Notes under the pieces: generated by a model
Database searches by the model: none
What the model was told of the DNA's origin: nothing
Seen by the model: only the letters and a program-made list of their open reading frames with translations
Position numbers and translations under genes: made by a program
Shown: one piece after another, positions 1,558 through 52,093 of the stretch
Layout: each line of letters opens with the position of its first letter
Numbering within the stretch: the stretch's first letter is position 1
IMG/VR virus record: IMGVR_UViG_3300028654_000001
Coordinates: 248,001 to 312,000 of that record
Strand: one strand, 5' to 3'
DNA: 64,000 nt
Source of the DNA: a virus

Positions 1558-2865
1558 ATGGCATCGGACCTCCACCTAATCCAACGGGTAGCATCAAAGT
1601 GGTCGAGTAAGGATTTTGAGTCAAGGTATGCCCGCCTTCTGCTTTCGATGTCAAGGGATCAAGCCAAAAAGGTCCTTGGTTTCCCTCCAAATGCTAACCC
1701 ATCAGAAAGTGAAATTACCAAGAACTATAGGGAGTTGGCTCTTAGGAACCACCCTGATCGTGGTGGTGATCTTGACACAATGGTGGAGATCAATGTTGCC
1801 AAGGATGTGCTGACCGGAAAGGCTCAGGAACGTTGGCAACCAGAGCCGAGCCCAGAGCGTACTAAATACAAGCCACCCCCACGTCCAGAGGCAGCCTACA
1901 CAGTGAAAGGGGTTCCATTTGCCGCCGCTTGGTCTGGAGCAGGGGTCCCAAGTGGCACTGATTGGAAGTTCGTCAGTGAGCAAGTTAGCTTGTACAGTAA
2001 GGGTTTCCCAACCCAACCTGGTTGTGTACTGTATGGGCAGACAGCAACACTCCATGTTTTCTGTGCAATCTTCAAGCAAGAGTCAACTGATAAGGTATGG
2101 CCCCCTACGGATTCTGATGGGAAGGTCTTTGAGGTTGAAGAAGGGTGGCGAGCTCAAGTTCTGACGGCCCCTATTGCTAAAGATCTAGATAAGATCGCCA
2201 TTAAGTACATCAAACAGATAGTCTCAAACTTCCCAGGTCCGGGCCCCAAAGATGGGAGTGTCCCAAAGAAGTATCTCCTCTATCCTCAAAGTATGGGAAG
2301 TCCAACGGAAGCCTATATCGGGAAGATCCCCTATCGTGGGAAGTTTGCCTTGAAAGAGGTTCTGAGACTTGCTGGTCTTGTTAAAGTTGATGAGGAGAAA
2401 GCTAAAGACACACCGGCTATTATTGAATTCTGGGGTGTCCAAAATAAGCAAAAACTACGAGATAACCCGAGAGGTTACTTGGGTAGTAGCGGTGACTTCT
2501 TCCTATCCATTGATGGCAAAGAGGTTAAACTAGAAGAGGGGACCTGCGAGAAGATCGTCAAGAGTATGTTCTTGGTCTCAGCTCTTCGAAACTTCGAGTA
2601 TCGAAAAGTCTACCGGTTGAATCGCCTGAAGGAGGGTTCTCTCTTCAAAGGCGGAGCTTACTACGCCTTCTTGACTCTTTTCGAGAGCCTCACTGGGGAA
2701 CCTTCTTGGGTAAAGGATGCCTTGGAAAAGAACGTAAGGATCTTCAAGCCTGAAGATCGAACAGCTTCAGTCTTCTTGAACCTCTGCTCTGAGATGTCTT
2801 TGAAGCAAGCTTCAGTTGTTACTGGGATCCCTATGCGTGAGCTAGTAGAGATGGTCTACGACTAA
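1558..2865 (+). CDS. DnaJ-domain protein with N-terminal VASKW-type tag
   Basis: The J-domain is clear: QAKKVLGFPPNANPSESEI, then the invariant HPD in RNHPDRGGD, at about residues 33-80 from the chosen start. The rest (about 330 aa) is not recognised. An ATG at 1465 would overlap the divergent Nudix gene; the ATG at 1558 gives MASDLHLIQRVASKW, which matches the peptide tag found on several other proteins here, so I chose it. J-domains stimulate Hsp70 (DnaK) ATPase, so it may recruit host DnaK. It is one of few plus-strand genes and ends 4 nt into the convergent GT51 gene. Confidence 0.75.
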   Translation: MASDLHLIQRVASKWSSKDFESRYARLLLSMSRDQAKKVLGFPPNANPSESEITKNYRELALRNHPDRGGDLDTMVEINVAKDVLTGKAQERWQPEPSPERTKYKPPPRPEAAYTVKGVPFAAAWSGAGVPSGTDWKFVSEQVSLYSKGFPTQPGCVLYGQTATLHVFCAIFKQESTDKVWPPTDSDGKVFEVEEGWRAQVLTAPIAKDLDKIAIKYIKQIVSNFPGPGPKDGSVPKKYLLYPQSMGSPTEAYIGKIPYRGKFALKEVLRLAGLVKVDEEKAKDTPAIIEFWGVQNKQKLRDNPRGYLGSSGDFFLSIDGKEVKLEEGTCEKIVKSMFLVSALRNFEYRKVYRLNRLKEGSLFKGGAYYAFLTLFESLTGEPSWVKDALEKNVRIFKPEDRTASVFLNLCSEMSLKQASVVTGIPMRELVEMVYD

Positions 2866-4538
2866 TCATCCAAGTCAACAGCTACCGGAGCCCCTAAGGC
2901 TGACTTCTCTACCTCAATCAAATCAGGGGGAACTTTCCCTGAAGCTGCAACCATATCAAGCAGCTTCTTGATCATCGGTAAGTCCTGTTGGTAGCTCGCT
3001 GAGTGATTCGGGCTCGGAAGCCTCAGAACCATGTACAGAGATTCTGACAGAGTCAGCTCGAGAGGGTCCTTCTTCAGGATCAGATACGACGCAGGCCCTA
3101 TCCCGTAGATGTCCGGGCCGTATTCCACGACGTTGAGATACATCTCGATGATCTTGTCCTTGGTGAACGAGCTCTCTAGGGCGACCGTTAGGATGGCTTC
3201 TTGGATCTTCCTTCCAATGGTTCGGTTCCTGTTCAGCCACAAGTTCTTCGCCAACTGCATCGTGATGGTGGAGCCGCCGCGGAAGAACCTTCCGAGCTTC
3301 AAGTTGTCCTTCAAGCTGTTCTCGATGGCCTGAGGGATGAAACCCCTGTGGTAGAAGAACGCAGGGTCCTCTGTGGTCGTGAGGGCTGTGGTCATGTTCG
3401 GACTGATCATCTGATAGGGAGTCCAGTCCGGTGCCGATGGTCCAGCTTTACGCGTGAATGGCTTTCCATTTGGATGGTACGCGGTATAGGTGAACTCACC
3501 TGAGAGATCCTTGATGAACTTCGGGGGCGGACCGGTTAGCTTGCAGCCGTTTGAGATCTTGAGTTTCACATCCGGAAGAAGCCTCAAGTCGAACTTGAAG
3601 TCTCCGACTAACCTCACCTGTTTGAGTGGATCGATCAGCATCTCTTCTGGGATAGACTCGAGCCAGTGCTGGCAAGAGTCCACGCCCCAGACATGCTTGC
3701 CTTCCCAGTTGAAGTAGATTGTCGACCACTTACTCTTCACCCAAAGGTTAGGCATCCCAACCAGAGGATTCTTGGGGTCGATAGCTGTGACCTCTACATA
3801 CCTGAAGGTGACTGGCACCGGGTAGAATCTCTTGTGCTCCACCTGGATGGACTTCGCCTTCGGGTAGATCAGGCCATCGGTAAACTCAAGGGCTAGCCCT
3901 TCAATGGTAACCGGTGGGTAGTAGATATTCCCGAGCTCGAGATGCTTGGTTTGAGTATTGAAGGAACCCTCGGTGAACTTGACCTTGTCCAGCTTGAGGA
4001 AGTCACTGATCTTTTGGAAGGCGTCTGGTAGACCAACCCAACCACTGGCAACAGTGGCTACCTTCGACTTGAAGTCGTAGTGCACCCCCTCTACCATAAC
4101 CAGACCGTACTTGGTCTCAATCTTCCCCGTGGCGGCCCGTGCCTCATTCGAATCAAAGGAGGCCTTGTAGAGTTTAGCGGAGTCCAGTCCCCTGTAGAGC
4201 TTCACGGTCAGGTTCTTACCGGTAACCTTGAAACCGGAACCGTTCTTCTGATCCTTTGAGTCAGAGGTTATGTCGACAAGAGCCAGCCCTCCATCAACCG
4301 CAATCGTCTTGGATTTTCTACAGGCAATTGCAGAATCGAAGGTACCCTCGATGTTGTGGATCTTTACGTTAACCCTCTCAAGCCTAACACAATCGAGGTT
4401 GAGTAACTTGACTGACCCAACCTCGACGCCTGGTTTCAACCCGTTGATGTAATGCTTCAGAATTGAAGGAAGAAGCCAGCCAAGTAACAGCAGGGTTACT
4501 GGTATTGAACCGATAATTAGCCATTTCTTACGTAGCAC
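2862..4538 (-). CDS. Membrane-anchored GT51 peptidoglycan transglycosylase
   Basis: 558 aa starting with GTG. Residues 5-28 form one membrane anchor. Residues about 40-370 are a beta-rich AsmA-like region without recognisable motifs. The C-terminal 180 aa are a GT51 glycosyltransferase: TTEDPAFFYHRG (catalytic Glu390), RGGSTITMQLAKNLWL, RKIQEAILTVALE and KDKIIEMYLNVVEYG. GT51 enzymes polymerise lipid II into glycan strands at the outer face of the inner membrane; no transpeptidase domain follows, so this is monofunctional. Such a biosynthetic enzyme is unusual on a phage and was probably host-derived. TGGTGTA lies 10 nt before the start. Confidence 0.85.
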   Translation of the reverse strand: MLRKKWLIIGSIPVTLLLLGWLLPSILKHYINGLKPGVEVGSVKLLNLDCVRLERVNVKIHNIEGTFDSAIACRKSKTIAVDGGLALVDITSDSKDQKNGSGFKVTGKNLTVKLYRGLDSAKLYKASFDSNEARAATGKIETKYGLVMVEGVHYDFKSKVATVASGWVGLPDAFQKISDFLKLDKVKFTEGSFNTQTKHLELGNIYYPPVTIEGLALEFTDGLIYPKAKSIQVEHKRFYPVPVTFRYVEVTAIDPKNPLVGMPNLWVKSKWSTIYFNWEGKHVWGVDSCQHWLESIPEEMLIDPLKQVRLVGDFKFDLRLLPDVKLKISNGCKLTGPPPKFIKDLSGEFTYTAYHPNGKPFTRKAGPSAPDWTPYQMISPNMTTALTTTEDPAFFYHRGFIPQAIENSLKDNLKLGRFFRGGSTITMQLAKNLWLNRNRTIGRKIQEAILTVALESSFTKDKIIEMYLNVVEYGPDIYGIGPASYLILKKDPLELTLSESLYMVLRLPSPNHSASYQQDLPMIKKLLDMVAASGKVPPDLIEVEKSALGAPVAVDLDD

Positions 4539-4566: not shown

Positions 4567-5076
4567 TCAGCAAGAAACATATGTACAAAGGTACAGCTTA
4601 ATATCCCGACTTGTATGATCAAGAGCGCAGATGACCTCGAATAGGATTCTCTTGATCTCGTCTAATCGATCTAAATCAACTGAAAATAGGTCATTACCTC
4701 GGTACTCACTGCATTCGTACTCCAACAACCGGTAACCAAGAACGTAGTTTGAGTTACGATCCCAGTCATCTCCGTTCAAAGTTGGGTCCACAATATGGAA
4801 CTGAAGCTTATTAGTAGACCCATCGCTAGTGTTCCACTCGTCAAACAGCTCGTCTGGGGTCTTCTTACCAAACTGTTTTTTGGAGAATTCCATGAAGGCT
4901 GGTTTGAAACTGCGAACCATTTGAGGCTCAAGCTTAGCCCCACACTTGGAGCAGAAAGGACCTCCTTGAGGCGGGTGACCCTTTGGGCACACCACAGCTC
5001 CTGGAAGGGTAATCACCAAGTCATTGGGGCTTAGGGTGGCCCCAATGACCAATCGTGGATAGTAACTTGCTCCCAT
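4567..5076 (-). CDS. Zinc-ribbon protein of unknown function
   Basis: 169 aa with a CPKGH and FCSKCG pair (about residues 30-46) forming a probable four-ligand zinc ribbon. The remainder is not recognised. It follows the vWA gene by 7 nt and is probably co-transcribed with it and the sigma gene. A DNA, RNA or protein adaptor role is possible but nothing in the sequence decides it. Confidence 0.65.
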   Translation of the reverse strand: MGASYYPRLVIGATLSPNDLVITLPGAVVCPKGHPPQGGPFCSKCGAKLEPQMVRSFKPAFMEFSKKQFGKKTPDELFDEWNTSDGSTNKLQFHIVDPTLNGDDWDRNSNYVLGYRLLEYECSEYRGNDLFSVDLDRLDEIKRILFEVICALDHTSRDIKLYLCTYVSC

Positions 5077-5083
5077 GAAAACC

Positions 5084-7501
5084 TCAGATCTTGATCTCGA
5101 CTTCTCTCATGTCGACTTTGCAGAGGAGATCAGCGCCTCCGAGCTCGAGAGTCATAAAATTCTCATCCAAAGATTTGAACTCTATTGGCCATATTTGCCC
5201 AACTATGATGGCAAATTTGATCTGGGCTATCTCTCGGATCTTCTTGCGGGTGACCGCAACAGCATCCTTGGCCTTCTTGTCGATCCACGCAGTAAAGGCA
5301 GCAAGCTTCTCCTCATCGGAGGGTGGCTTCCCATCCTGTGCATTTGAGACCACAGCCATTGTGTATTCCTTGGAGGCCAGCCACTGCTCGACCTCGGTCA
5401 ACGCAGGTACCAAGAGAGCCCCGCTCGTGGTTTGCTTCTTGGTAGTACCGATCTTCTTCCGAACCTCATTCACGGAAGGGAGCTTGGATAGACCGGCAAT
5501 ACTGACCTCGAGCTTCTTGGCTACATAGAAGTCAATTGCAGCCGCTGAGACTGTGTGAGGGGGTGAAAAGCCAGAATAATCGGTGAACCCTTGCTCCTTC
5601 AACCAATTAGCTATCTCGTCTCCATACGTGGCTACGAACCCTGGTGACTTCTTGGGTGGTATCTTTTCGTCCCTGATGTCTTTATAGACCTTCTGGGCTG
5701 CCCTGGACTTCTCGAGCTCCCACTGAGCCAGGAACAGGGCCTTAGCACTGGCGGCCTTGATCATCCTTCGATTGATTACAGGGAGAGCTCGGAGGTTGAT
5801 GACCCCGATCACGAAACCACCAGCCATCGAAAGCTTGGTTGGCTTGGCTTCAGCAGGGAGCAACTCAGAGAGCTTCTTGGCGGTTGCCTCTGTAACCCTC
5901 ACTGGAAGAGACTCCACGTTGACTAAACCATCCTTAACAATGGCGTAGTTACGGAAGATAAAGGTTTGGAATGACGTCGGAACCTTCCCCTTGAACTCAT
6001 CCTTGAGACGAGCTGAAATGTCGACGGTGCCGGTTTTCCTAACCCCAATCGAGATATTCGGAAAGTCCTCGTTGTAAACCAAGGAAGAGATTGGATAGCC
6101 TTCAGGGGCTGGATCAGCCACGAACTTTAGAGGTGCTGGCTTGGAATTAAGAAGAGTTGTCAGCTCCTCATTCAGCTTCTTGATCTCAGAGGCCTTCTTC
6201 TCTGTACCCAACTTGACCTTGATCTCATCAACTCTAGCTTGCTCGGCAGCAGTGAGGATCTCGTCTGCATCAATTCGACTACGGCCGATCTTTGAGTACT
6301 TGAACTCAGGGTGCTCCAACAGGATATGAGCTGACTCATCACTGGCGAGTAACCCAAGAAGATCGAGAACCGTATAAGCATCGTCATCAGGTACCTTCTT
6401 TGGATCCCAGCCCTTCGTGTAGCGGAGCTTGACATCAAAAGCCGCCGCCTTGGTAGAGTCCATGAAGTCGCTGTATTTTTGCTTTCCAAAACATGACGAA
6501 AACCGATCGACGAAGTCAACATCGGCTAGAGCCTTCAGGAACGGGAAGACTACGTCAGACTTCATGCGAACCGAGTAGAGGGACACGGCCGCATATGCAG
6601 CTGCTAGGGCAACATTATCTGCTTCACAAGTTGGCAATTGTGAGTTGCTTGTATAAGCTGCGGATACCTGACCAAGATCAAGTTTGTAAGTAGTTCCTTC
6701 CTTGTGAGGGCTAACCCTCCAGAACTCGGTTACGTCAGTAGGAAGGTTAGCTTTACCGTCCTCAACGGCGTAGGTTGTCAGTTCCCCATCGATCAGAGTG
6801 TAGACGAAGTTCCCGATGGATCCCCCAGACACCTTGACTTCTATCTTGGGTGCTCCAGAGAGCTTCTTACTCAATGAGGCCTCGAGAGCTGGTTCGTACT
6901 TGGCAAAGTGCTCAGCGAAGATCAGTTGACCTCCGGCCTTTTCTGCCATGGCCGTCAAGAGAGGCCTATCAGCGTAGTAACCATACTCCACGAAGGTTGC
7001 CGCCGATAACCCACCAGCTGCCTCTTCAACGGTACTAAGGATCTCCCCTCTTGGCCAGCAATTATCACACCCATCCGACATGAAGAACAAAGAGAAGATT
7101 GACCCTGACCTCTTGGTACTCACACGCTTGATGAGTGCTGAGACCTCCTGGAGGGGCTCCTTGAACCCGGTTAGCCCAATTGGCTGCAACCACCTGTCGA
7201 TGGCCTTGTTGACGTCCTGCAGGTCAGTGAGGGTCGCTACAGGCTCGGCCTCGAGCAGAGTACCGAACTGCCCTCTACCTGAAAACCAGATGATAGATAC
7301 CGTGTCATTAATCCCAATGAGTTTCGGGAGCTTCCTCTTTAATTGCTCGCGAATCTTCGGAAGTTCGCCATACATGCTGCCTGAAACGTCAATAACCAAT
7401 AGGTGATTGGTTGGTACCTCGACAGGCTTCGCCTTCTCTTTTGTCTTCTTCAACTCTTGGTGAACAAGAAACAGCCCGTCAGCAACCTGGTATGACAGCA
7501 T
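5084..7501 (-). CDS. von Willebrand factor A domain protein
   Basis: 805 aa. The vWA domain occupies about residues 30-200: LLVIDVSGSMYG supplies the DxSxS metal-ion-dependent adhesion site, and FFMSDGCDN the later Asp. The C-terminal 600 aa are not recognised; they are rich in Lys/Glu helices. vWA domains mediate metal-dependent protein-protein contacts, and large vWA proteins recur in jumbo phages without a settled role. No signal peptide or membrane segment is seen, so it is probably cytoplasmic or virion-associated. A CGGTGTA motif lies 32 nt upstream, with a purine-rich GGAAGGA between motif and ATG. Confidence 0.8.
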   Translation of the reverse strand: MLSYQVADGLFLVHQELKKTKEKAKPVEVPTNHLLVIDVSGSMYGELPKIREQLKRKLPKLIGINDTVSIIWFSGRGQFGTLLEAEPVATLTDLQDVNKAIDRWLQPIGLTGFKEPLQEVSALIKRVSTKRSGSIFSLFFMSDGCDNCWPRGEILSTVEEAAGGLSAATFVEYGYYADRPLLTAMAEKAGGQLIFAEHFAKYEPALEASLSKKLSGAPKIEVKVSGGSIGNFVYTLIDGELTTYAVEDGKANLPTDVTEFWRVSPHKEGTTYKLDLGQVSAAYTSNSQLPTCEADNVALAAAYAAVSLYSVRMKSDVVFPFLKALADVDFVDRFSSCFGKQKYSDFMDSTKAAAFDVKLRYTKGWDPKKVPDDDAYTVLDLLGLLASDESAHILLEHPEFKYSKIGRSRIDADEILTAAEQARVDEIKVKLGTEKKASEIKKLNEELTTLLNSKPAPLKFVADPAPEGYPISSLVYNEDFPNISIGVRKTGTVDISARLKDEFKGKVPTSFQTFIFRNYAIVKDGLVNVESLPVRVTEATAKKLSELLPAEAKPTKLSMAGGFVIGVINLRALPVINRRMIKAASAKALFLAQWELEKSRAAQKVYKDIRDEKIPPKKSPGFVATYGDEIANWLKEQGFTDYSGFSPPHTVSAAAIDFYVAKKLEVSIAGLSKLPSVNEVRKKIGTTKKQTTSGALLVPALTEVEQWLASKEYTMAVVSNAQDGKPPSDEEKLAAFTAWIDKKAKDAVAVTRKKIREIAQIKFAIIVGQIWPIEFKSLDENFMTLELGGADLLCKVDMREVEIKI

Positions 7502-29070: not shown

Positions 29071-31446
29071 TCAGGCTTCAGCAGCGGCCGGAGAAATCTC
29101 CCCCCGAGGGGGTATGTCAGCAGGCTCCCGCTCTCGCAAGGTAATCATACAATCCCCACCATTGACGGCTTGTTTCGTTACAACAATCTTTTCAATGTCA
29201 GGGTTGTTTGGAGCTTCATAGGAGATCTTCCTGGTTGCTTTCTCTACAATCGAACGCAGAGCCCTGGCACCCGTTGGCTTCTTCTTAGCCAGAGTGGCGA
29301 TCTCGGTGAGAGCTTCTGGATCAAATTCAAGGTTGATCCCATCCATTCTGAAGAGGGCCTGAACCTGTTGCACTATACTATTCCGTGGTTTCACCAAAAT
29401 CTCGACTAACTGTTCTTCTGTTAGCTCGATAGTACTAGTAATTATAGGAAGGCGTCCCATCATCTCAGGTATGATCCCAAAGTCCAGAACATCTTGCTCT
29501 ATAACCTCAGTATAACCACGGGTTTTATCAACTTTTTCCTTTGCTACAGCCCCAAAACCCATGCTGGAACTCTTGTTCAACCTTCGAGCAACAATCTCAT
29601 CAATGCTAGCAAAGGCACCCGCGCAGATGAAGAGAATGTTCGTAGTATCCACCAAGTCAAAGGTCTGCATCCCGGCGCCAGCCTTACCCATTCCACGAGG
29701 GACTGCCACTGTCGACCCCTCGAGGAGCTTGAGGAGGGCTTGCTGAACACCCTCACCAGATACATCCCGGTACCCAGCTCGGTCACGACCGCTACCCCTG
29801 GCGATCTTGTCTACCTCGTCTAAAAACACGATTCCCCATTGAGCACGCTCCACATCTCCACCCGCATCTAATATGAGACCCTGGATGAGAGTCTCCACAT
29901 CAGCCCCAACATAACCGGCTTGTGTGAGGGTGGTTGCGTCTCCAACATGGAATGGAACGTTCAGCATCCGAGCTAACGTCTCAAAAATATGAGTTTTTCC
30001 AGTGTTATGGGTAACAGTGAAGTCGTCCAGTAGGTAGCGGTGGTCCCCATCTAAAACAAATCCAAAGTATTCCTCAGCCGGCATAGTTCGAGTCTTGAAT
30101 CCAATCCTGAGAACATTTTTACTAGACTGCCTCTCAGCTGCCTTCTTACGAGGTATTCTAGTAGGGACTTCAGAGGTACTTCCGGATATGCACATCCGAT
30201 AGTAAGCCCCTACAAATCCTGTTTGACAACTCTTTGTACAAGGTTGCGGGTAACAAGCAAAACCAAGACTCCTAGTAATGAAGGTTAGGTCCCCCACTAA
30301 GGTTTTCGACTTGTTTACGAAGTCAAAGCAACTGCATTCATCGAGAGAACCATCTGTATCGATTAACCCTGCTAGGATCTCTAACCGATCTTTCCTAGAT
30401 GCTGTTTTGTAACAATGAGGTATGAACTTGTTCTCTCCAGTAACCCTAAGTAAACCTAGGCCCTCTAATGCTTTTGCTATTGGATTCTGAGGCTTACCGC
30501 ATCCTGGCTTGTCTGGGTTGGGGGAGTAACTATCACTCTGGGTCAAGTAATAAGTTGGGCACCGTTCCCCATTAGAATCATTCGGGGATAGGGTTAATCC
30601 AAATTTAGCAGCTTGCCTCTCTAGCTCTGCAAGTATCTCTGGGTCATCTGTAGTCACACCTGGGGTGCCTCCTAATGAACCGTCACCTAGTAGGATACCT
30701 AAGAAGTAAGGGTCAATAGGGAGTTCAGTTGTAGTAGCGGTAAACTCAACTGGTACCCGGAATAACTTGTGAACCGACTTCCTAGTTCTAGACCAAGATA
30801 GCCAATCCATTAGGGCAACGTCAGAAACATCATTAGCAGGGCGGTACCCTGATCCACCATTGTATCCAGTACGAACAAGAGTAAGGATATGACCCTCATT
30901 AACTACCCAGGGCTCGCCCTTAGTTGGAACAATCTCAACCATCCCACTAGTACCCCGATGTAATTCAAGTACATTGCGAGGGGTACTATCTGGACCCATA
31001 AGCTGATCACCCACCTGAACATCCTCTACAGCTTTTAGGGTCCCATCGAACATCAGCACAAGCTGACCTTTTTGGTGGCACCCGCTCGGCCCTAGAAACA
31101 AAATATTGCTTTTCCTAATTTCCACGGGTTTTGACCCGTCAGTCGGTTGCTCAGTAGCCCACTTACGACGTTTGAAGTGGTTGTAGACCACCGTGGAGAT
31201 GTCAATCTTGGCTTGCTCTTGTCCAATCACAAATTCATCCAAGTGAGCTTTGATCTCAAAGGGCTTCTTAAGAGGTTCTTCTTTCTTAGCCTCAAAGCCA
31301 CCCTTTTCAGCACCAGCTTCAAGAGAGGCAGCAGCCTGTACAATACATCGATTGCAGATCGATGGCCCCTTCTCTGGATTTGCTACAACGAGGTTCTTAA
31401 CCTCGTTTCGGGGGCGTCCGCAAAAGTCACAGGTAGTTACTGCCAT
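29071..31446 (-). CDS. clpX: ClpX-like AAA+ unfoldase, intein-split
   Basis: 791 aa precursor; 432 aa after removal of the intein (residues 123-481), close to bacterial ClpX. N-terminal zinc finger CDFCG...CNRC, Walker A split as GPSG/TGKT, pore loop AGYVGADVE, Walker B IVFLDEVDKIA, and sensor regions are all present. The loop SSSMGFGAV corresponds to the ClpP-docking IGF loop, so docking onto host ClpP is plausible. The RKH loop of bacterial ClpX is replaced by Gly/Ala-rich sequence (GMGKAGAGM), suggesting altered substrate choice. CGGTGTA lies 13 nt before the ATG, with no Shine-Dalgarno. Confidence 0.9.
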   Translation of the reverse strand: MAVTTCDFCGRPRNEVKNLVVANPEKGPSICNRCIVQAAASLEAGAEKGGFEAKKEEPLKKPFEIKAHLDEFVIGQEQAKIDISTVVYNHFKRRKWATEQPTDGSKPVEIRKSNILFLGPSGCHQKGQLVLMFDGTLKAVEDVQVGDQLMGPDSTPRNVLELHRGTSGMVEIVPTKGEPWVVNEGHILTLVRTGYNGGSGYRPANDVSDVALMDWLSWSRTRKSVHKLFRVPVEFTATTTELPIDPYFLGILLGDGSLGGTPGVTTDDPEILAELERQAAKFGLTLSPNDSNGERCPTYYLTQSDSYSPNPDKPGCGKPQNPIAKALEGLGLLRVTGENKFIPHCYKTASRKDRLEILAGLIDTDGSLDECSCFDFVNKSKTLVGDLTFITRSLGFACYPQPCTKSCQTGFVGAYYRMCISGSTSEVPTRIPRKKAAERQSSKNVLRIGFKTRTMPAEEYFGFVLDGDHRYLLDDFTVTHNTGKTHIFETLARMLNVPFHVGDATTLTQAGYVGADVETLIQGLILDAGGDVERAQWGIVFLDEVDKIARGSGRDRAGYRDVSGEGVQQALLKLLEGSTVAVPRGMGKAGAGMQTFDLVDTTNILFICAGAFASIDEIVARRLNKSSSMGFGAVAKEKVDKTRGYTEVIEQDVLDFGIIPEMMGRLPIITSTIELTEEQLVEILVKPRNSIVQQVQALFRMDGINLEFDPEALTEIATLAKKKPTGARALRSIVEKATRKISYEAPNNPDIEKIVVTKQAVNGGDCMITLREREPADIPPRGEISPAAAEA
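30004..31080 (-). mobile_element. Intein with LAGLIDADG endonuclease in clpX Walker A
   Basis: 359 residues, Cys123 (CHQKGQLVLMFDG) to Asn481 (TVTHN), followed by Thr+1. LAGLIDADG motifs LGILLGDGSL and LAGLIDTDGS are visible. Insertion is exactly inside the P-loop. Confidence 0.9.
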
Positions 31447-36933: not shown

Positions 36934-37048
36934 CTGACAACCATTTTTGACCTGAATACCTACCGAGAGGGCTGCCCTAGCTGACAACCGCTGCTGGCCT
37001 GAGCACCAACCGTAAGTACGTGGCCAAGCTATAGAAAATGACGAACTG

Positions 37049-37079
37049 GAGCCGTAAGGCTCGATGCTGAAGACATCGA
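37049..37079. other. Structured segment within the 70-bp array interval
   Basis: Two small inverted repeats lie side by side: GAGCC/GGCTC around a 4-nt GTAA loop (37049-37062) and CGATG/CATCG around a 7-nt loop (37062-37078). Such structure is unusual for a random spacer and could mark an RNA element. Confidence 0.45.
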
Positions 37080-37194
37080 GCTCTTGCTGACAACCGCTGC
37101 TGGCCTGAGCACCAACCGTAAGAGCTTGCTGCGTTCTTCACCGGTCTCAGGCCGTCGACTGACAACCGCTGCTGGCCTGAGCACCAACCGTAAG

Positions 37195-37215
37195 GGCCTG
37201 AGCACCAACCGTAAG
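37195..37215. repeat. Partial repeat (21 bp) inside the array
   Basis: Exact copy of the last 21 bp of the 36-bp repeat (begins GGCCTGAGC) placed directly after the repeat ending at 37194. It looks like slippage or recombination and occupies over half of the interval before the next repeat. Confidence 0.85.
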
Positions 37216-37338
37216 CACACTCGGCACCCATCTGACAACCGCTGCTGGCCTGAGCACCAACCGTAAGTCCAGTCGTCATAAACCAATAAACTCCTGTACT
37301 TGAGGCGTGCTTTGCGAGAGATTCCTTTCCTCCTCCTT

Positions 37339-38967
37339 TTAAAAGAACCTAAGTTGTTGATTTCCTTTAGGTTGTCTTTTAGAAGCGCCTGGGCGCTCGC
37401 GATGGGTACTCAGATCAGTAACGGGCTGGTAAGGCTCACACCCTTTTCCTGGCTCTCGTTCCCCACAAGCAGGTTCTACAACATCCAGGATCTCAGGCGC
37501 AACCGTTTCTTGGCCAGCTGATACAGGCGATCCAATCTGACTCCGGTTTCTAAGGCCGAAGCTGGTAGGTAACTCTCGTCCCTTGCCTATCTCGGATTCT
37601 TTTCCACTCAATGTCGCCTGTAAAAGCTTGTCCACTTCCGGCCAGGTTTTTAACGCCTGACCCACATTGAGCTGATCCCCTTCCACGCAAGTAGCGAGGA
37701 AAGCAGAGTATAAGTCTCGTTGAGACTTCAAACCACAGTCACACGAATGCCACCTCTGACTGAGAGACTTCTTCTCTATAGTCCCGCACCCATGGCAGGT
37801 TTGACTCAAACGAGTTGTTCTTGTTGAGAATTCAGTAACCTTTGAGGCTTTACGGCGAAGCTCAGCCATGAACATCCCAGGTGCCCGATACCCAACTGAT
37901 CTACCAAAGTTTTTCTGAAAAGATCTGTAAGATACTTTTTCTGTCCTAATATCGTCACCCAAAGTAAGGATTCGGTTAACCAAGTTACCTTGGAGGCTCT
38001 TTCGATGAGCTGCTTGCTTACGCTGAATAGATGATCTCTGTAAGGATACTTTGGTCTGTCTCTTGGAGATAACCCACTTCTTCGATCCCTTACGGATAGT
38101 TCCATCTGGGTTATAGTTGTTCGGATTATTGGATCGACGCTGACGATCCTCCTGTCTCTGAAGTTGGCGAATAGTCTCTTGTTTATCATCGAGTTCCGAA
38201 CAAAACTCCTCTAAAAGAGCTACTCCAGCTTGAGGAGCCACTACTGCAATAGTTGAAGGTCCTAAGTCTAACCCAACTACCCCGTGTCCAGGGAGGTTAC
38301 TTTCCTTTATGTATGGAAGACCCTCACAAACTAGTTGAGCATAGTACCGAAGTTTACTGCCAACTTGTCGACGGACTAGTTGAACATGTTTAATCCGGTG
38401 GGACAAACCATGGGCAGTAACCTTGTCGTTTGGGTCAATGACTGCTTTGATCCCCTTGAGCCCAAACCAATCAATATGATCCTTCTTCCATTTGACGCCG
38501 GAGTTGCTACGACCATCAATACAATTAAAAGTTCCTTTCCGTAAGAAATGTGGTCTACCACGTTTACTAAAGCTGTACCCCTGAACGATTTTGAACTCCC
38601 GAGAGGCAATAGCCATCATCGTGGAGGCGTCTAAATGACCGTCACTATTGAGCCAAGAATGAGTTAGATTAGCAGTAACCCAGTTATGAAGGTCAAACTC
38701 TCGAAAGTTAAATTCCTCATTCAACTGATTAAAGGTCTCGAACCTGGTCTTCGATTCTAATGAGCCCCTACCACCCTTTGGGAGTTTTATAGCAGTTCGG
38801 TATGCCTTGGATTCCTTCATCAAGTCCAACCGTTTGAGAGTCTCTGTCAAGCAAGCATTACCAACCATCCGAGCGACCTCAAATCGAATAGCAAGGATTC
38901 GCTCATCCCTAGGCGACGTAGCCAGAGGAAGCTCACAAACGAAGGTTGGACTTGAGTTACGAGCCAC
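37339..38967 (-). CDS. TnpB/Cas12-like RuvC nuclease
   Basis: 542 aa, GTG start. RuvC-I VVGLDLGPSTIAVV (Asp234), RuvC-II RTEKVSYRSFQK (Glu343), zinc knuckles CHGC (391-394) and CDC (409-411), and RuvC-III QRDLYSAFLA (Asp418) are all intact, so it should be an active RNA-guided-type DNase. It is longer than most IS-borne TnpB (about 400 aa) owing to an extended N-terminal half and a 124-aa tail after RuvC-III. No TnpA transposase or IS ends are seen. The repeat array lies 71 bp downstream on the same strand, and TGGTGTA lies 9 nt before the start, the phage's usual gene-start motif. I read it as a domesticated TnpB or compact type V effector. Confidence 0.8.
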   Translation of the reverse strand: MARNSSPTFVCELPLATSPRDERILAIRFEVARMVGNACLTETLKRLDLMKESKAYRTAIKLPKGGRGSLESKTRFETFNQLNEEFNFREFDLHNWVTANLTHSWLNSDGHLDASTMMAIASREFKIVQGYSFSKRGRPHFLRKGTFNCIDGRSNSGVKWKKDHIDWFGLKGIKAVIDPNDKVTAHGLSHRIKHVQLVRRQVGSKLRYYAQLVCEGLPYIKESNLPGHGVVGLDLGPSTIAVVAPQAGVALLEEFCSELDDKQETIRQLQRQEDRQRRSNNPNNYNPDGTIRKGSKKWVISKRQTKVSLQRSSIQRKQAAHRKSLQGNLVNRILTLGDDIRTEKVSYRSFQKNFGRSVGYRAPGMFMAELRRKASKVTEFSTRTTRLSQTCHGCGTIEKKSLSQRWHSCDCGLKSQRDLYSAFLATCVEGDQLNVGQALKTWPEVDKLLQATLSGKESEIGKGRELPTSFGLRNRSQIGSPVSAGQETVAPEILDVVEPACGEREPGKGCEPYQPVTDLSTHRERPGASKRQPKGNQQLRFF

Positions 38968-38976
38968 GTATTTAGT

Positions 38977-38983
38977 TACACCA
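38977..38983 (-). promoter_or_regulatory. TGGTGTA motif before the TnpB/Cas12-like gene
   Basis: Nine nt before the GTG start at 38967; links the nuclease to the phage's own expression system. Confidence 0.6.
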
Positions 38984-43480: not shown

Positions 43481-46426
43481 CTACTTGGTGGCCTTCTCTG
43501 CTGCAGTAGCCGAGATTGTCTTGAATTGAGTTGAACGACCCTTAGAAGCAAATCTGGCTCGGATACCGTCCCCAGATTCCTTGTCGAACCCTACCCAATC
43601 AATGATATTATGGATCTCATCAGACATAGTCTTGATGATACGGGGCCGCCGCGTTAGGTCCTCCAGAAGGATCTCATAGTCCAGACCCTTGCACTTTGCA
43701 TTGAAGCTTTTGACCATCGAAGCTTCAACAGCCTGTTCGATCTCACGACCTACTAGACCATCAGCTTTCTCGGCCAAAGTAGCTAGGTTGAAGTTGGATA
43801 CATCTTGCGAGAAGTTCTTTGCATGGATCTTTATGATATCGATGAGGGTTTCCTCATCAGGGATATCGAAGAAGAACCTTTCTGGCATCCTGTTGACCAT
43901 CTCCGCGGGCATGGTCTTCAGGGAGTTGGCAGTCATCACCAAACAGGCTGGAGCATTAGATTCTTGGGTCCAGGTTGAGAGGATACCCAGCAAGCGAGAG
44001 GTGGTACCCGCATCTGATTGAGCCGATGAATCCCCACCGGATAGGCTCTTCTCAGCTTCATCTATCCACATAATGCAATTATGTGTGATCAATCCATTTG
44101 CAATAAATGAATGAGTGTCCTCACCCTCACAAACCAAGTCATAAACATCTTGAGTCCCAATGGGTTCAATGCTCTTCACCTGTACCCACCTACAATCAGC
44201 CTCAAGAATACGCTTGAGCTCAGATCCGCTAGACCCGAACTTCTCAATGTAGTTAATGAGATGACGTTCACTAACTGGAACTCTACCACTCTCATAAGAC
44301 CAGGTAACCCCAGACGAAGCACCTAAATCTGAGAACTTGGTACCAGACGCCTTTCTGGCCTCATGTAATAGTTGACCACAAGCAAACCCTGAACCTCGAT
44401 CAAAACCAATAGATGAAGAACTAATTTGTGTGGCCTTGACACTCTTTTCAACAAGGTACTCCCTAATAATTCCGGCTAAGTGAACAGCTCTACTACCGGT
44501 AATCTCCATTGAAGGGAAGTCAAACTTAGAAGGTATTACCCCCAGTGATTGGATTAGTTGACGACCCAATAACTGACGCTGAGCCCACATCTTCGGATGT
44601 TTGACAGTAAGAGCGATCTTATTACGGCCAATACATCCATCAGCATCAATCCACCCCGCAAGGAAAGCAGCTCGTACCTCCGGTGGTGCTGTCAAGATAT
44701 GCTTACGTGCTTCTCTGAGAAATTCAGCTGCTAACTGATTTGTAACTAAAGATGTCCAACAGGTTTTGAAAACTGAATCTTCAGTTAGTCCAGTTAGTAT
44801 AGGATCCTTAGAGTTATTCTCATGACGTGTTGCTTGAAGTCCAAATTGATTGATTAACCCGTGCTCAAAATAGGAGAGTAACCCCTCAGACGTGTTAACC
44901 AAACCAATTCCGTCATTAGCGCCGATGAAGCCATCACCCTCAAGTATACCTAGAACCCAACCTAGTTCTGTAGACCAAACCCTTGGGAGCTTTGGTACAA
45001 TGGCATCCCGAAAACCGCCACCCCCCCTACGAAACTCCATTCTTCCCTGGGCAGCTTCATAATTACGCATTCCAACTGGATGGAACCTAGTGCAATCTGA
45101 ATCCCCGGGATACTTGGCTATAGAAACCGCCATCATATCCCCAGGTAAAAGCTCGTCAGTGCTGACCCAATCTGGTAACCCACCTCGCATAATATAGTGG
45201 AGGTGGTTTTCTGTAGCGTTCAAGTAGTAACCATTAGCAGCATCAATACGGAAGGCTTCTGCTTGACGACATGTGATAGCACTCACCCGGGTTGAACCCA
45301 ATCGAAGTGTCTTTTCATTCCAACATTGAACGGAAAGATCAGTGGTTCCAGACAAGGACTCTTGCCATAAAACACCAATTGGTTTTGAAGTCCCATCTGC
45401 AAGAGTGACCTCGGTCTCTTCCGTCACGCATGGGGATACCGACTCCACGATCCTCAGAGCCCGATACAAGTTAGCTTCGGACTCACCCACTGCAGAGTTT
45501 CTAAGTTTTCCCATCTCGAACTGAATGAGAGGGAGCTTCCATTCTGTGGCAAGAGCCTTGGCTGAAAGTGACTTACCACAACCATAAACCCCCATGAGAA
45601 GGACCCCGCGGGGTGGTACCAAACCGAATGCCTGCCCCTCTTCAGTCCAACAAGATTGAGTACTACGTGCCCATTCTTTGAAGCACTCGGCCCCACCAAC
45701 CGAGTCAAAGCTAACTTTGCTCGAGTCGACGATCTGTACCAGATCGGTTTTCTTAATCTGGTTCCGCTTGTACTTACTAATCAAGACCGGGTCTACACGC
45801 TTTGGATCTACGGAGTCCTTCTTGGTTCTCACCACTGATTGAGTGATGGCAGCCTCTACCTCAAAGCTAGTAAACCCACGGAATAACTTGCCGATATTGG
45901 AGGGCACAGGTGTCTGAAGTTGCCTACAGAAATCTGTAACAAGAGTAGTCAACTCTTCTTCCTGGAGCCCCTTAGTGTCAACGATCTCAAAGTACCGAGC
46001 AAGCTTCTCTGGAATGACTCGCCGAGTGCTCACAAATATAAGGCACTTCACAACTCTGAGATCCACATGGAGTTGATGGATGATGTTCAGAACACGCCGG
46101 ACAGCTTGTTCATCTCGAAAGATCCTTTCAGGATCAGTGAAGATGTAGAAGTGCTCCTTGTCTTTCGGGTCATCCTTGTAGACCTGAGTAAGAGCCTCAT
46201 GGAGCTCGCGTGGAGTAGCCTCCGTATGACTCCTTTGAGTCCAATCTCTAGTCAGATCACCAATCTTCTTCAACCCGAGGCACCAATTGTAGACCCATGT
46301 TCGGTCTTCATGCTTATTCATCTGGAGTTGGAAGTCTTTGATGAAGTTATCCTCTTCATCGGTGACTACATAAACCAGACGGGTAAGTGCCCGTAGGTGA
46401 TGAACCATCTCAGCATTCAGGGTCAT
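43481..46426 (-). CDS. Ycf46-like AAA+ ATPase, intein-split
   Basis: 981 aa precursor; about 530 aa after removal of the intein (333-783). N-terminal 230 aa form the divergent domain of Ycf46-type proteins. Walker A GVYGCGKS (279-286), LRNSAVGESEANLYRAL, Walker B IMWIDEAEKSLSG after the splice point, then VMTANSLKTMP and MPERFFFDIPD complete the AAA core, as in chloroplast/cyanobacterial Ycf46. Such proteins are unassigned chaperone-like ATPases. The neighbouring Ycf35/DUF1257 and DUF2997 genes are known companions of Ycf46-like ATPases. AGGAG precedes the ATG, and TGGTGTA lies 35 nt upstream. Confidence 0.8.
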   Translation of the reverse strand: MTLNAEMVHHLRALTRLVYVVTDEEDNFIKDFQLQMNKHEDRTWVYNWCLGLKKIGDLTRDWTQRSHTEATPRELHEALTQVYKDDPKDKEHFYIFTDPERIFRDEQAVRRVLNIIHQLHVDLRVVKCLIFVSTRRVIPEKLARYFEIVDTKGLQEEELTTLVTDFCRQLQTPVPSNIGKLFRGFTSFEVEAAITQSVVRTKKDSVDPKRVDPVLISKYKRNQIKKTDLVQIVDSSKVSFDSVGGAECFKEWARSTQSCWTEEGQAFGLVPPRGVLLMGVYGCGKSLSAKALATEWKLPLIQFEMGKLRNSAVGESEANLYRALRIVESVSPCVTEETEVTLADGTSKPIGVLWQESLSGTTDLSVQCWNEKTLRLGSTRVSAITCRQAEAFRIDAANGYYLNATENHLHYIMRGGLPDWVSTDELLPGDMMAVSIAKYPGDSDCTRFHPVGMRNYEAAQGRMEFRRGGGGFRDAIVPKLPRVWSTELGWVLGILEGDGFIGANDGIGLVNTSEGLLSYFEHGLINQFGLQATRHENNSKDPILTGLTEDSVFKTCWTSLVTNQLAAEFLREARKHILTAPPEVRAAFLAGWIDADGCIGRNKIALTVKHPKMWAQRQLLGRQLIQSLGVIPSKFDFPSMEITGSRAVHLAGIIREYLVEKSVKATQISSSSIGFDRGSGFACGQLLHEARKASGTKFSDLGASSGVTWSYESGRVPVSERHLINYIEKFGSSGSELKRILEADCRWVQVKSIEPIGTQDVYDLVCEGEDTHSFIANGLITHNCIMWIDEAEKSLSGGDSSAQSDAGTTSRLLGILSTWTQESNAPACLVMTANSLKTMPAEMVNRMPERFFFDIPDEETLIDIIKIHAKNFSQDVSNFNLATLAEKADGLVGREIEQAVEASMVKSFNAKCKGLDYEILLEDLTRRPRIIKTMSDEIHNIIDWVGFDKESGDGIRARFASKGRSTQFKTISATAAEKATK
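44078..45430 (-). mobile_element. Intein with LAGLIDADG endonuclease in the Ycf46-like ATPase
   Basis: 451 residues, Cys333 (CVTEETEVTLADG) to Asn783 (LITHN), followed by Cys+1 just ahead of Walker B. LAGLIDADG motifs LGILEGDGFIG and LAGWIDADGC are visible, so homing is probably intact. Confidence 0.9.
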
Positions 46427-47842: not shown

Positions 47843-50800
47843 TCAGAGGTTATGGTCATCCATCAGTACTTTGAAAAGATTCACGTTCACTTTAATTTGC
47901 AAAGCCGGATCAATCAAGGTCTCGTTGTTACCACTCTCGAGAAGATGAAGAACCCTCCCTTCTGGATCCCGACACCTCATGCAGGCTGCACTCACTTGTT
48001 TTACCGTATTCTGTGTTAGATTGTAGGGGCTGATATGGTATATTAGAACCCCATTACCATTATCAGACTTAGACTTCCCATTGCCGTTAGGTGGAACTGA
48101 AGTTCGTGCCGGAGGGAGGTTTGATGCCAGATTGGGTTCCGGAGTCTCAACTTGAATTGAAGTGGCTGTCTGTGGAACCGAAGTCTCAGTAGTAGAAGTG
48201 GTTGAACTGACTGGACTTGAGTTGGAGGGAGGAGGATCCTGCGCGGGAGGCGACTGGGGAGTCTCCCCCTTCCGCATGTAGTCTGGTACCAAATGCCCCT
48301 CTAGCCAAGGGGGTATTTGCTGATAGTACCTTCCGTTTACTTCCACGTCAGTTTTCTTAGGTGACTTGCCCTTCTCCGGAATATACCCGTGCATGATCTT
48401 GTAGTAGTCATACTTGGGATCCCAGTGCAGGTCGAGTAAGGGCTCAACCTCAAGATGGACTGGCCACCCACGAGCCATCTTCGCCGGTGAGCACATGATA
48501 TCAGTGAGGACTGGCATTACCTCCATGAGCTTCTCATGTTGTACCTCAAAAACAAGCTCATCATGTACTGTCAACAAGAACCTGACGGTATTATCCTGTA
48601 ACCACCCCATCTTGTAGAACTTCTTGTAGAGCATGACCATCGACATCTTCATGATGTCGGCACCCGAGTTCTTAGTAATAACCCCGTCAGCTTCAAATCG
48701 ATGAAGGGGATCTTTGACCGAAAGTGTGTAGGTCTCCTCCACTTGGTCAAGAATCTTGATCTTCTTGATCTTCTTGTGGCCGTAAATAGGATTCCGAAGG
48801 GTTACCCCAACTTGCTTGCATAAGTCATCAAGCGTATAAACAGTGACCTTACCCCCATTGACGAGTCGACGGTACAGAACATAGCTTGAATTGTCTCTGA
48901 AATCGGACTGTACCCACTTACCACGACTCAAAAAGTCTTGTACCAAAAAGTCAGGGGCAAACATATCATGGAACTTAGGTCCCCGGTTCTGCACCCCTTG
49001 TACATTACGCTCAAACATTCTGCGATTGATGTCAAGACGGTAACTAGTAGTATCGTCTCCGTTCTTATCAGACCCACTCCGATAGGGTCCACGAATGACT
49101 GATTCCACCCCAAGGGTACGAAGGAGCAACTTCAAGTCCTCAAGTAAGGGGCGCTGGCACAAATGGATATTGTAGGGATTCCCTTTTGCACTCACCAGTG
49201 GAGGCTTATGACCATCAGAATCCATGACACCACGGATAAAAGATTTCCGGTGCTCCAACCTCTCTTGAAGAATACGTGCTGGTAATCTCTTGGTGTGCGC
49301 TGTTGCCCCAGGGGTCAACCCTAATCGTTCAAGAAAACAAGTAAGTTCCACATTTTGGACTATCACTTGATGTCTTGTTGATTCTTTATTCTTTGGAGTA
49401 TGGGTGTTAGTCCTGAATTGCGTATTAAGCCCACAGGCCCCCCAGAAGTCTCGACACCTTTTGATAGCTATAGCCTCATGTGAACCAAAACAGGTCCTAA
49501 ATATCCCATCATTGAAGCAACCGTCTCCAATATAGCGTCCAACCCAATACCAGAACTCGGAGTGACTACCTCCAAGTTGAAAGTGTCTCTGTGCTTTTTC
49601 TACCCGAGTTACTGAATGTAGCTTAGGTGGGTTGAACTCTATAGGGTAGCAAAGTGCAGTTGCAGACCTGTCACCTGGACTCAGGTTTTTGAAGTTTATC
49701 CAAGAGTACCCAGAATCCGACACAACCAATTGTTTATGTCGAATATCACAACGAACGGTTGTTCCATCACTCAAAGTGATCTCAGCCAACCGGCACTCAC
49801 CCATAGAATGCGCTGTTGCCTTAGCCCATTTTGATCCAGTCCAAACCTGAACTAACTTATTGGCTGCAGATAAATCCCCGATCTTTTTCAACCCACTTTT
49901 GGTTGTGATAAGACTGGCATAAAAATTGCACCCCTGGATCGGATAATTCAGAGAATATCTCTCACAGGCAGCTACCACTGCCTTATCCTGGCTGTCAACA
50001 TCCGGAACAGCCATCCATCTACCGAATGCTGTATAGACCCCCTTGTCCTTCTTGACAAGAGCTTTCTGTTTTTTGACCCACTCATTGAAAATGGGCATTG
50101 CCTTATCGAATGCGGCTTTCCTCCGAGCTGCCTCCTGCTGGGTACACTTGGTAGCCCGCATGATGGCCATCGTCCCACCACCGTAAACCAAACTGAAATT
50201 CGCCATTTTTCCTTGTTGGCGTTGCTGTTTGGTGATCTCACTACCGAAAAAAGCCTTGGCCGTGATGGTATGCAAGTCCCCCGTACCCTCATTGAACTCC
50301 TTAATCCAAGCAGGCTCTCTCGATAGATTGGTGACGATTCTAAGCTCTTCACCAGCGAAGTCAATCTTGACCATCGTGTAACCCTCACGGGCTACGAAGG
50401 CTTTTCTCAATGCTGTAGCTACCTTAGGCTTCTTCTCATCATACGTGGAGGGGATGCCGTGGATCGGGATTGCACCATACCCTTGAGAAGCTTCCCCAGC
50501 CGGAGCTGTGAACCTACCTGTTGGTGCACCAGTCTGCTTGAATTGGTACCGAAGTTCTTGATTTTCATCACAATTGTTCAGCATACCTTCAAGATAAGTG
50601 CCAATGACCTTCTCTATCTGGCGATACTTGACAATTACCAATAAAATCGGGTTTATATCAGGGTGTTCTTCAACCAACTTTTCAAGAGTATCGGCATCTG
50701 TCTTGTACTGTTGAGAACCAACGGCCGAAGTCTTATCTGGCTTTGGTTCGATGTTGAGCCCCGTCGAACTAGCAAAGAGGAAGTTGCTTAGTTGTTGAGT

Positions 50801-52093
50801 GGACTGAGGGTCAAAGTTTTTGAAACCCTTGAGTTCAGCTAACCCAACAATTTGCTTGCGATAGAGGTCAGCTTCTTCCTTGGCTTCGGTGAGGAGATTT
50901 CTAACATACTCGTGATCAATCTTGATTCTCAGCCTCTCCATCCACCGTAGGACTTGGCTGACTTGTTTCTCGAGTCGATAGATGTTGGCATATCGAGGGT
51001 CCTTAGCAACCGAGAGGATGCTAGGCTTGTCACACAGTAGAAAGGTGCAGATAGCATCCGAGCAAGCGTAGTAGCGGGCCTCGCTCGGTTTCAAAGTAGC
51101 AAACTTGATCTCCCTACCCTTGACGAACAAGTCTTTCAACTTAATCATTTCATATTGGATAGGGGACCCTTTGGGATCTTCGTCGACGAGCTCGTGCAAC
51201 GGATTCTTAGGATCAGCCTTGATGTACCCTCTGATCGTAGTACCCTTCTTGTCGGTGACCCACAGATTGGCCTTAGCTTTCTCCTTGAGACCCAGTGACT
51301 TGTCACCGGTGAAGATGCAGTAGTAGATGAGAAGACCATCCTCAAAGGACTCTGGGTGCCAAAAGTCGATCCCAGTAACCGGATACAAGAATTCCTGGTC
51401 GAACTTAGCGTGCCAGAAGTAGATTTTCACTTTTCCTGGACGTTCCAAGAGAGGACTACCAAGTGGATCGGTCTTCTTCCCATCGGCGCTAATCACTGGC
51501 TGTGCTGCTAGACACAACCTTTTAATCTCTCTCCCGGCTTCAATCGGATTTACGTTGATAATCTCTTCTCCGGGAGCCGCATGGCGAACTGGAACATAGT
51601 ACCCAGTGTACCCATCGTAACTAAGACAGTAACCCACAATCTTGTGAACGGTTGTTGGAATGACATCGGGTCTGGTATCATTCCAATGCTCAACTGGAAC
51701 CTTGATCTCAGATTGTTTTTTCCAATAAATCCTATTATCTAGACCCTCAGTTTCTAAGTCGAGGGAGCACTTACCGGCTTTGATGGCTTGATCGACAATC
51801 TCAGTTAGCTCAGCCAGGGTCTCAACTACCACGAACTTGTGGTAGTTCATCCAGGCCTTCATAATGTCGGTGGCATCGGGTTCCAGATTAGCACCCATGC
51901 TTTCCATAATGGAATCGAAGTCATCCCCAGAGGTATCTGAATCTGGTGGGTTGAATTCTGGAGAACTAATCGTCTGAGGAATGGGCAAGGGTTCATCATC
52001 CCCTGTCGCTTCCGCAAGAGTTGGTGGTTGACTTGACTGAATTTCTACCTGTCCAAGAATCGCGGCCAACTCATCATCGTCAATTGACGGCAT
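47843..52093 (-). CDS. Family A DNA polymerase with 3'-5' exonuclease, intein-split
   Basis: 1416 aa precursor; about 995 aa after intein removal (722-1142). Exonuclease motifs: CSLDLETEGL, WHAKFDQEFL and YYACSDAICT. Polymerase motif A VKIDFAGEELR, motif B KMANFSLVYGG, and motif C TVHDELVFEV follow. No 5' nuclease domain is seen, as in phage replicative family A enzymes. After the core comes a Pro/Ser/Thr-rich linker (about 1260-1340) and a small C-terminal domain (AACMRCRDPEG), unusual for the family and perhaps a partner-docking site. It lies between the zinc-primase/helicase genes and the Ycf46 block. Confidence 0.9.
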   Translation of the reverse strand: MPSIDDDELAAILGQVEIQSSQPPTLAEATGDDEPLPIPQTISSPEFNPPDSDTSGDDFDSIMESMGANLEPDATDIMKAWMNYHKFVVVETLAELTEIVDQAIKAGKCSLDLETEGLDNRIYWKKQSEIKVPVEHWNDTRPDVIPTTVHKIVGYCLSYDGYTGYYVPVRHAAPGEEIINVNPIEAGREIKRLCLAAQPVISADGKKTDPLGSPLLERPGKVKIYFWHAKFDQEFLYPVTGIDFWHPESFEDGLLIYYCIFTGDKSLGLKEKAKANLWVTDKKGTTIRGYIKADPKNPLHELVDEDPKGSPIQYEMIKLKDLFVKGREIKFATLKPSEARYYACSDAICTFLLCDKPSILSVAKDPRYANIYRLEKQVSQVLRWMERLRIKIDHEYVRNLLTEAKEEADLYRKQIVGLAELKGFKNFDPQSTQQLSNFLFASSTGLNIEPKPDKTSAVGSQQYKTDADTLEKLVEEHPDINPILLVIVKYRQIEKVIGTYLEGMLNNCDENQELRYQFKQTGAPTGRFTAPAGEASQGYGAIPIHGIPSTYDEKKPKVATALRKAFVAREGYTMVKIDFAGEELRIVTNLSREPAWIKEFNEGTGDLHTITAKAFFGSEITKQQRQQGKMANFSLVYGGGTMAIMRATKCTQQEAARRKAAFDKAMPIFNEWVKKQKALVKKDKGVYTAFGRWMAVPDVDSQDKAVVAACERYSLNYPIQGCNFYASLITTKSGLKKIGDLSAANKLVQVWTGSKWAKATAHSMGECRLAEITLSDGTTVRCDIRHKQLVVSDSGYSWINFKNLSPGDRSATALCYPIEFNPPKLHSVTRVEKAQRHFQLGGSHSEFWYWVGRYIGDGCFNDGIFRTCFGSHEAIAIKRCRDFWGACGLNTQFRTNTHTPKNKESTRHQVIVQNVELTCFLERLGLTPGATAHTKRLPARILQERLEHRKSFIRGVMDSDGHKPPLVSAKGNPYNIHLCQRPLLEDLKLLLRTLGVESVIRGPYRSGSDKNGDDTTSYRLDINRRMFERNVQGVQNRGPKFHDMFAPDFLVQDFLSRGKWVQSDFRDNSSYVLYRRLVNGGKVTVYTLDDLCKQVGVTLRNPIYGHKKIKKIKILDQVEETYTLSVKDPLHRFEADGVITKNSGADIMKMSMVMLYKKFYKMGWLQDNTVRFLLTVHDELVFEVQHEKLMEVMPVLTDIMCSPAKMARGWPVHLEVEPLLDLHWDPKYDYYKIMHGYIPEKGKSPKKTDVEVNGRYYQQIPPWLEGHLVPDYMRKGETPQSPPAQDPPPSNSSPVSSTTSTTETSVPQTATSIQVETPEPNLASNLPPARTSVPPNGNGKSKSDNGNGVLIYHISPYNLTQNTVKQVSAACMRCRDPEGRVLHLLESGNNETLIDPALQIKVNVNLFKVLMDDHNL
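48668..49930 (-). mobile_element. Intein with LAGLIDADG endonuclease in the DNA polymerase
   Basis: 421 residues, Cys722 (CNFYASLITTKSG) to Asn1142 (GVITKN), followed by Ser+1 within the YPIQG/SGADIMK helix. LAGLIDADG-like VGRYIGDGCF and RGVMDSDGH are present. The penultimate residue is Lys rather than the usual His, an atypical splice junction. Confidence 0.85.

Follow-up and report, generated by a model that had tools for sequence, protein, structure and literature searches.

The transition from the transposon nuclease TnpB to an effector of clustered regularly interspaced short palindromic repeats (CRISPR) is a known route to type V systems. The closest described systems are the TranC nucleases, reportedly transposon-CRISPR intermediates whose guide RNA is split into a trans-activating CRISPR RNA (tracrRNA) and a CRISPR RNA (crRNA); their cleavage is said to be guided by the crRNA and also by the right-end RNA (reRNA). 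Here we describe a locus in a 64,000-nucleotide stretch of viral DNA, hereafter the window (bases 248,001-312,000 of the 512,571-bp virus record IMGVR_UViG_3300028654_000001), in which a TnpB of the insertion sequence (IS) type IS605 seems to have lost its transposon and to have gained a small CRISPR-like array. Within the open-licence literature covered, this viral variant of the route appears to be new.

According to an updated classification, about 50 independent events of array gain by TnpB have been inferred (PMC12669027), and a landfill study mentions two virus-encoded TnpBs near CRISPR arrays (PMC12607003). Short viral arrays without cas1, such as the one in the window, are described in a paper on virus mini-CRISPR arrays; in contrast to those, the window array has an adjoining effector gene, and whereas mutations or deletions block self-targeting in the archaeal-virus mini-arrays treated there, the self-match found in the window is perfect (PMC6858448). 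Type V-U and Cas12f systems share with the window a small RuvC effector by an array without cas1.

With TranC, the locus shares an effector of the IS605/IS607 TnpB lineage (judged from family matches, identities and tree placement) and a CRISPR array adjoining the effector, the spacer nature of which is supported by the origin of one interval; a split of the guide RNA into tracrRNA and crRNA is predicted from sequence. It differs in being virus-borne with a self-derived spacer, in having no intact canonical reRNA end, in a TnpB that is no close relative of LaTranC, and in sister loci that bear unlike repeats (29 versus 36 nt). On the whole, the system appears to work like a TranC, of which it is a candidate member. 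A phage-domesticated IS605 TnpB turned into a minimal CRISPR effector is the explanation we prefer, with a probability of roughly 0.7.

The TnpB gene and its repeat array

The effector gene is an open frame of 542 aa, and its RuvC residues D234, E343 and D418 show no variation when it is aligned to 11 plasmid and phage TnpBs (31-43% identity), which agrees with the nuclease described in the original prediction. That prediction called the protein TnpB/Cas12-like, of which only the first half holds. By sequence, we regard it as an IS605-type TnpB rather than a Cas12: identity to nine IS605-type relatives reaches 38-53%, whereas the Cas12f models of PADLOC match weakly (best 47.5 bits) and no Cas12f model is among its NCBIfam matches up to E=1. 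The family matches lie under their cut-offs (NCBIfam guided_TnpB, 69 bits against 100; Pfam TNB domain, 23.5 bits against 26.3). In a tree of the window protein, 32 chosen relatives and one distant TnpB, built without Cas12f rows, it forms one clade with the TnpBs of loci L025, L026 and L027 (support 96/88), nested among canonical IS605 TnpBs. The AlphaFold2 model has a mean predicted local distance difference test value of 76.9, with the last 73 residues below 50; a fold search with this model returned ISFba1 (8iaz) and ISDra2 (8h1j and 8exa) as the top three, at low template modelling scores of 0.34-0.38 on the query, and LaTranC at rank 11. In a sequence search of the PDB with the A1 family profile, LaTranC (structures 9jfq and 9jfo) also came first (E=2e-13). 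The sequence of the window TnpB alone gave no match to LaTranC at E up to 1, so the two are not closely related.

The array starts 71 bp past the stop codon, on the strand of the gene, and consists of four identical 36-nt repeats followed by a degenerate copy, as predicted (Table 1). The 36- and 37-bp intervals named in the prediction both exist, but intervals of 70 and 11 nt are present as well, and the last 21 nt of the 37-nt interval duplicate the 5' part of the repeat. The repeat does not recur elsewhere in the record at up to 3 mismatches, nor does a 20-nt piece of it have an exact match among viral contigs; a recurrence as an unrelated element, which the prediction had counted against itself, was thus not seen in either set.

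The second interval (S2) is identical in 36 of 36 positions to bases 500,679-500,714 of the own genome, 216 kb distant, and the edges of identity coincide exactly with the edges of the repeats. Hence, the intervals behave like spacers, and the exact identity is hard to explain unless the interval entered as a spacer. Four copies that agree at 36/36 positions, together with a 36/36 genomic twin of one interval, are more than chance would give. The matched site is situated in a 179-aa frame without NCBIfam or Pfam match, and the first 20 nt of S2 have no match among viral contigs. The 16 unique nucleotides of interval 1 (up to 2 mismatches) and stretches of 20 and 24 nt from the third interval, S3 (up to 3 mismatches), have no second copy in the own genome; one reading of interval 1 is a 37-nt spacer acquired from an array. 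The sole viral-contig match to the first 20 nt of S3, locus L093, was set aside: identity ends at nt 21 and the flank lacks TGACC (see below), making it a weak lead or chance. Compared with phages and with plasmids, the array region gave one match each (E of 0.3 and 1). A scan for promoters and terminators yielded counts no higher than in shuffles.

A TNB-domain model detected one TnpB-like gene in the record besides the window tnpB. This gene (469 aa; L098 = G000:C1:498500-503000, 2595-4004 (-)) ends 379 bp before the site matched by S2 (2180-2215 (-)).

Transposase and cas1 were stated to be missing, and record-wide searches for TnpA (Y1_Tnp; control positive in 5/14) and Cas1 (PF01867; control positive in 9/14) were indeed empty, cas2 not being searched. 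Moreover, only 28 bp separate the upstream gene from tnpB, too little for an IS left end. The absence of TnpA alone is weak proof, because the record of L028, although its omegaRNA is canonical, is also without TnpA. Among phage records, no near match to 24 kb of the window was found.

The omegaRNA core and a candidate anti-repeat

In eight canonical relatives, the omegaRNA contains a core stem of the form CCxxGGATGyyGTA...GAGrGCCxxGG, followed by a 3' hairpin, which in most of them reads GAACCCC-loop-GGGG, and in all eight by TCAG; the right edge of L015 is consistent with this, since a plasmid match begins one base past its TCAG. A covariance model built from these eight only (R1) was run on 17 sources with 174,214 bases and matched 15 of them (not L021 and L023), each at or just past the tnpB 3' end. 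The best match in the window (37426-37491 (-)) reached 26.5 bits with E=0.0011, compared to 12.8 bits for the runner-up, and places the core within the last 150 nt of tnpB. An intact canonical 3' hairpin was not found in the window, where R1 aligns the core and skips 49 positions of the hairpin region; in L025, too, R1 aligns the core and skips the hairpin. The core of L026 and L027 is located past the tnpB stop codon, therefore tnpB coding does not explain it. An Rfam search over 2.7 kb around the locus gave a single match, far under the threshold of that family. The likeness to canonical IS605 TnpBs (ISDra2, ISFba1; L015, L030, L031) covers the family, the RuvC triad, the omegaRNA core and the TCAG scaffold end, and the window differs from them in a record without TnpA match and in a repeat array that takes the place of an intact 3' hairpin.

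The repeat may carry part of this lost hairpin. Its last nine bases, GGTTGTCAG (TTGTCAG end), resemble the omegaRNA end AAGTTGTCAG of L029, and its first 21 nt can pair with a 21-nt anti-repeat that follows the core. Shuffling either partner 1000 times never gave an ungapped pairing score as high as that found in the 75 nt downstream of the core; elsewhere in the window, three chance sites attain this score or a higher one. For the degenerate terminal repeat, the anti-repeat is the best non-self pairing site in the 64 kb on both strands. The predicted co-fold of the window comprises the core stem together with a repeat:anti-repeat helix, and an intermolecular helix is likewise predicted for L026. 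These data are best read as a split guide RNA, with a tracrRNA-like part on one side and crRNA repeats on the other, a division reportedly present in TranC. The original prediction was incomplete in that it named neither the irregular spacing nor the self-derived spacer and did not include the omegaRNA core or the anti-repeat.

Table 1. Positions of the tnpB gene, the predicted guide RNA parts and the repeat array in the window
Feature	Position	Strand	Remarks
tnpB-like gene, 542 aa, RuvC D234/E343/D418	37339..38967	-	alignment, family, model and fold searches
omegaRNA core stem (TCCTGG...CCAGGA) within tnpB 3' end	37447..37490	-	covariance model R1
21-nt anti-repeat (candidate)	37396..37416	-	14 Watson-Crick + 4 GU pairs with repeat nt 1-21; 16 Watson-Crick + 3 GU with terminal-repeat nt 1-21
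gap tnpB to repeat 1 (leader position), 71 bp	37268..37338	-	no promoter/terminator match inside
repeat 1, 36 nt	37232..37267	-	identical copy
interval 1, 37 nt	37195..37231	-	16 unique nt + 21-nt copy of repeat 5' part
repeat 2, 36 nt	37159..37194	-	identical copy
interval 2 (S2), 36 nt	37123..37158	-	36/36 to own genome C1:500679-500714 (-)
repeat 3, 36 nt	37087..37122	-	identical copy
interval 3 (S3), 70 nt	37017..37086	-	
repeat 4, 36 nt	36981..37016	-	identical copy
interval 4, 11 nt	36970..36980	-	
degenerate terminal repeat	36934..36969	-	26/36 to others, GGTTGTCAG end kept

Elsewhere in the window, matches to intein, Hint or LAGLIDADG models, some of them under the curated cut-off, were obtained at 29071-31446, 43481-46426 and 47843-52093; they lie inside genes for a ClpX-like protein, an AAA ATPase and a family A DNA polymerase.

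Sister loci and rival explanations

The window TnpB alone, used as query, found no relative among viral contigs; a profile search of the same contigs gave 64 loci. Direct repeats near the tnpB 3' end were sought in 84 loci (65 + 19), many of which are near-copies and some of which are clipped by contig ends, and array-like repeats were present in four of them (L026, L027, L030 and L068). Two more were not counted as arrays, namely L016, with repeat copies of 20 nt or longer 916 nt apart, and L087, with an overlapping tandem repeat of 20 nt or more at a distance of 1.1 kb. In L026 and L027 the array directly follows tnpB, and the records of L025, L026 and L027 gave no TnpA match. Searched at up to 3 mismatches, the L026 spacer and one L027 spacer do not recur in their respective records; a second L027 spacer matches its own contig only. 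L025 carries on its 7.2-kb contig a second frame (5129-6238) that is TnpB-like by eye.

L030 was rejected as a case of split guide RNA. Its array of 36-nt repeats (4580-4990, period 66) begins 16 nt past the canonical IS605 omegaRNA end and is probably a mere neighbour, because L030 keeps TnpA and this end. In L031 (2500-5000), a TIGR-like (tandem interspaced guide RNA) array of short alternating units (AGCAGCCG x5 and GAGCACCG x5 in 620 nt) surrounds an IS605 element that has TnpA, TnpB and a canonical omegaRNA.

The most serious rival is that a phage mini-CRISPR array serves a CRISPR effector of the host and adjoins a former IS element, the TnpB, to which it is unrelated. In its favour are the mini-arrays that viruses are reported to carry in the absence of cas genes (PMC6858448) and the IS605 elements of L030 and L031, which have TnpA and adjoin other repeat arrays. 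Furthermore, at 69-74% identity the L027 repeats resemble an unannotated stretch next to type I-E cas3, casA and casB in a Synechococcus plasmid and a stretch near cas3 in a Deinococcus plasmid, with two Klebsiella matches also listed; the L026 repeat is presumably type I-E-like as well. Nevertheless, we regard this explanation as unlikely, because an array directly 3' of tnpB, with the core kept and the canonical end not intact, occurs in three different virus records whose TnpBs belong to one clade, and because the window repeat can pair with an anti-repeat next to the omegaRNA core.

Still less probable is a decaying locus, in which slippage or recombination made several copies of the omegaRNA 3' end, debris was captured as intervals and nothing works. 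The irregular intervals, the 21-nt partial repeat, the 11-nt interval and a self-matching spacer whose site has no adjacent TGACC would fit such decay; the open 542-aa frame with its catalytic residues, the four perfect repeats, the exact 36-nt insert with clean edges and the similar layout in two sister records would not. That the repeats are protein-binding sites or another phage repeat element without guide RNA, an idea for which their few copies and a fold of the lone repeat no stabler than its shuffles could be quoted, is hardly credible given that no other copy was seen in the genome at up to 3 mismatches, that the 20-nt piece has no exact match in viral contigs, that a spacer-like self-derived insert is present and that the repeat end is shared with an omegaRNA.

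A domesticated TnpB effector, our preferred explanation, must nevertheless be weighed against a number of observations that speak against it. The intervals, counted from tnpB, measure an irregular 37, 36, 70 and 11 nt. The only spacer of traced origin matches the phage itself, at a site with the 5' flank GCACCTTT, which lacks TGACC. No array was seen in L025, the sister in the tree, which is a 7.2-kb fragment; the prediction had considered close relatives without any array as counter-evidence, and the other two relatives in the clade, L026 and L027, do have arrays. In these two loci, the hairpin region has left weak remnants to which R1 can still be aligned, ending in AAATCAT and AGATTCAT instead of TTCAG, and the repeats end in CCG, not CAG. 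The pairing tests are also uneven. For the window, the duplex-energy test limited to the 75-nt tail gave 0.027-0.032, and over a 433-nt region the energy was not significant (21/200 shuffled targets and 34/200 shuffled repeats were as good). In the sisters, the energy tests gave 0.11-0.25 for L026 and 0.010-0.045 for L027, and the ungapped tests were not significant (0.09-0.12 and 0.64-0.78). The minimum free energy co-fold of L027 lacks the intermolecular helix, and its repeat pairs better with the L026 tail than with its own. Even so, the predicted intermediate on the way from TnpB to a miniature type V system is supported as the best reading, the effector being a TnpB; from Cas12f it is set apart by the weak PADLOC match and by its grouping within the IS605 TnpBs in the tree, which was built without Cas12f rows.

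Proposed mechanism and its meaning

If this reading is correct, the tnpB 3' end would yield a tracrRNA-like RNA with core, 5' arm and anti-repeat, and each repeat would supply the other half of the former 3' hairpin with its TCAG end, followed by the guide. The repeat would pair with the anti-repeat, and TnpB would bind the duplex and cut DNA that matches the spacer beside a target-adjacent motif (TAM). Spacers are probably added by the adaptation module of the host, which is proposed because Cas1 was not found in the record. The likely use would lie in conflict with mobile elements or other phages that share the cell.

The candidate TAM came from reading left ends; the comparison of multi-copy elements gave no help. 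A left-end pattern found eight distinct elements (L089 repeats L031 and was left out of the count), and TGACC is upstream of 7/8 left ends, with L012 and L013, from one genome, having TGACC farther away. The left end of L015 has CGACC in this position, and its homology to other plasmids stops within GACC. The left ends of L006 and L024 look different and do not show TGACC. If the clade keeps a TGACC-like TAM, S2 would not cut the own genome; with its 5' flank, the self-site need not be a working target.

A more far-reaching scenario, which we offer tentatively and with the odds clearly against it, would be a TnpB lineage confined to viruses, whose guide RNA underwent a single split and was afterwards re-coupled to CRISPR-type repeats of different kinds (I-E-like 29-nt repeats in L027, similar ones in L026 and 36-nt repeats here), every kind having an anti-repeat of its own. 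The adaptation machinery of the host would supply the spacers in trans and would draw on the phage's own DNA as well, which would be safe as the self-sites lack a TAM, and L068 would perhaps be a second, independent case. The TnpB of L068 is distant (29% identity) and outside the tree. Its four 33-nt repeats (4731-4970) are spaced by 68, 74 and 65, two of them 70% alike to the first, and its 90-kb record gave no TnpA. The 90 nt preceding this array showed pairing with p of 0.04-0.05, and L068 is a possible second, independent case of a TnpB with an array.

The locus looks like a snapshot of CRISPR nucleases arising from transposons. The effector is small, and a TAM worth trying is indicated by the related elements. 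The presence of a perfect self-derived spacer in an array of a phage raises the questions of how arrays of this kind obtain their spacers and what prevents self-cutting. Finally, several stages may be visible within a single small viral clade, with the core kept, the 3' hairpin lost and an anti-repeat and repeats gained; such a staged clade, together with the unlike repeats between sisters, would, if true, make the order of these steps testable.
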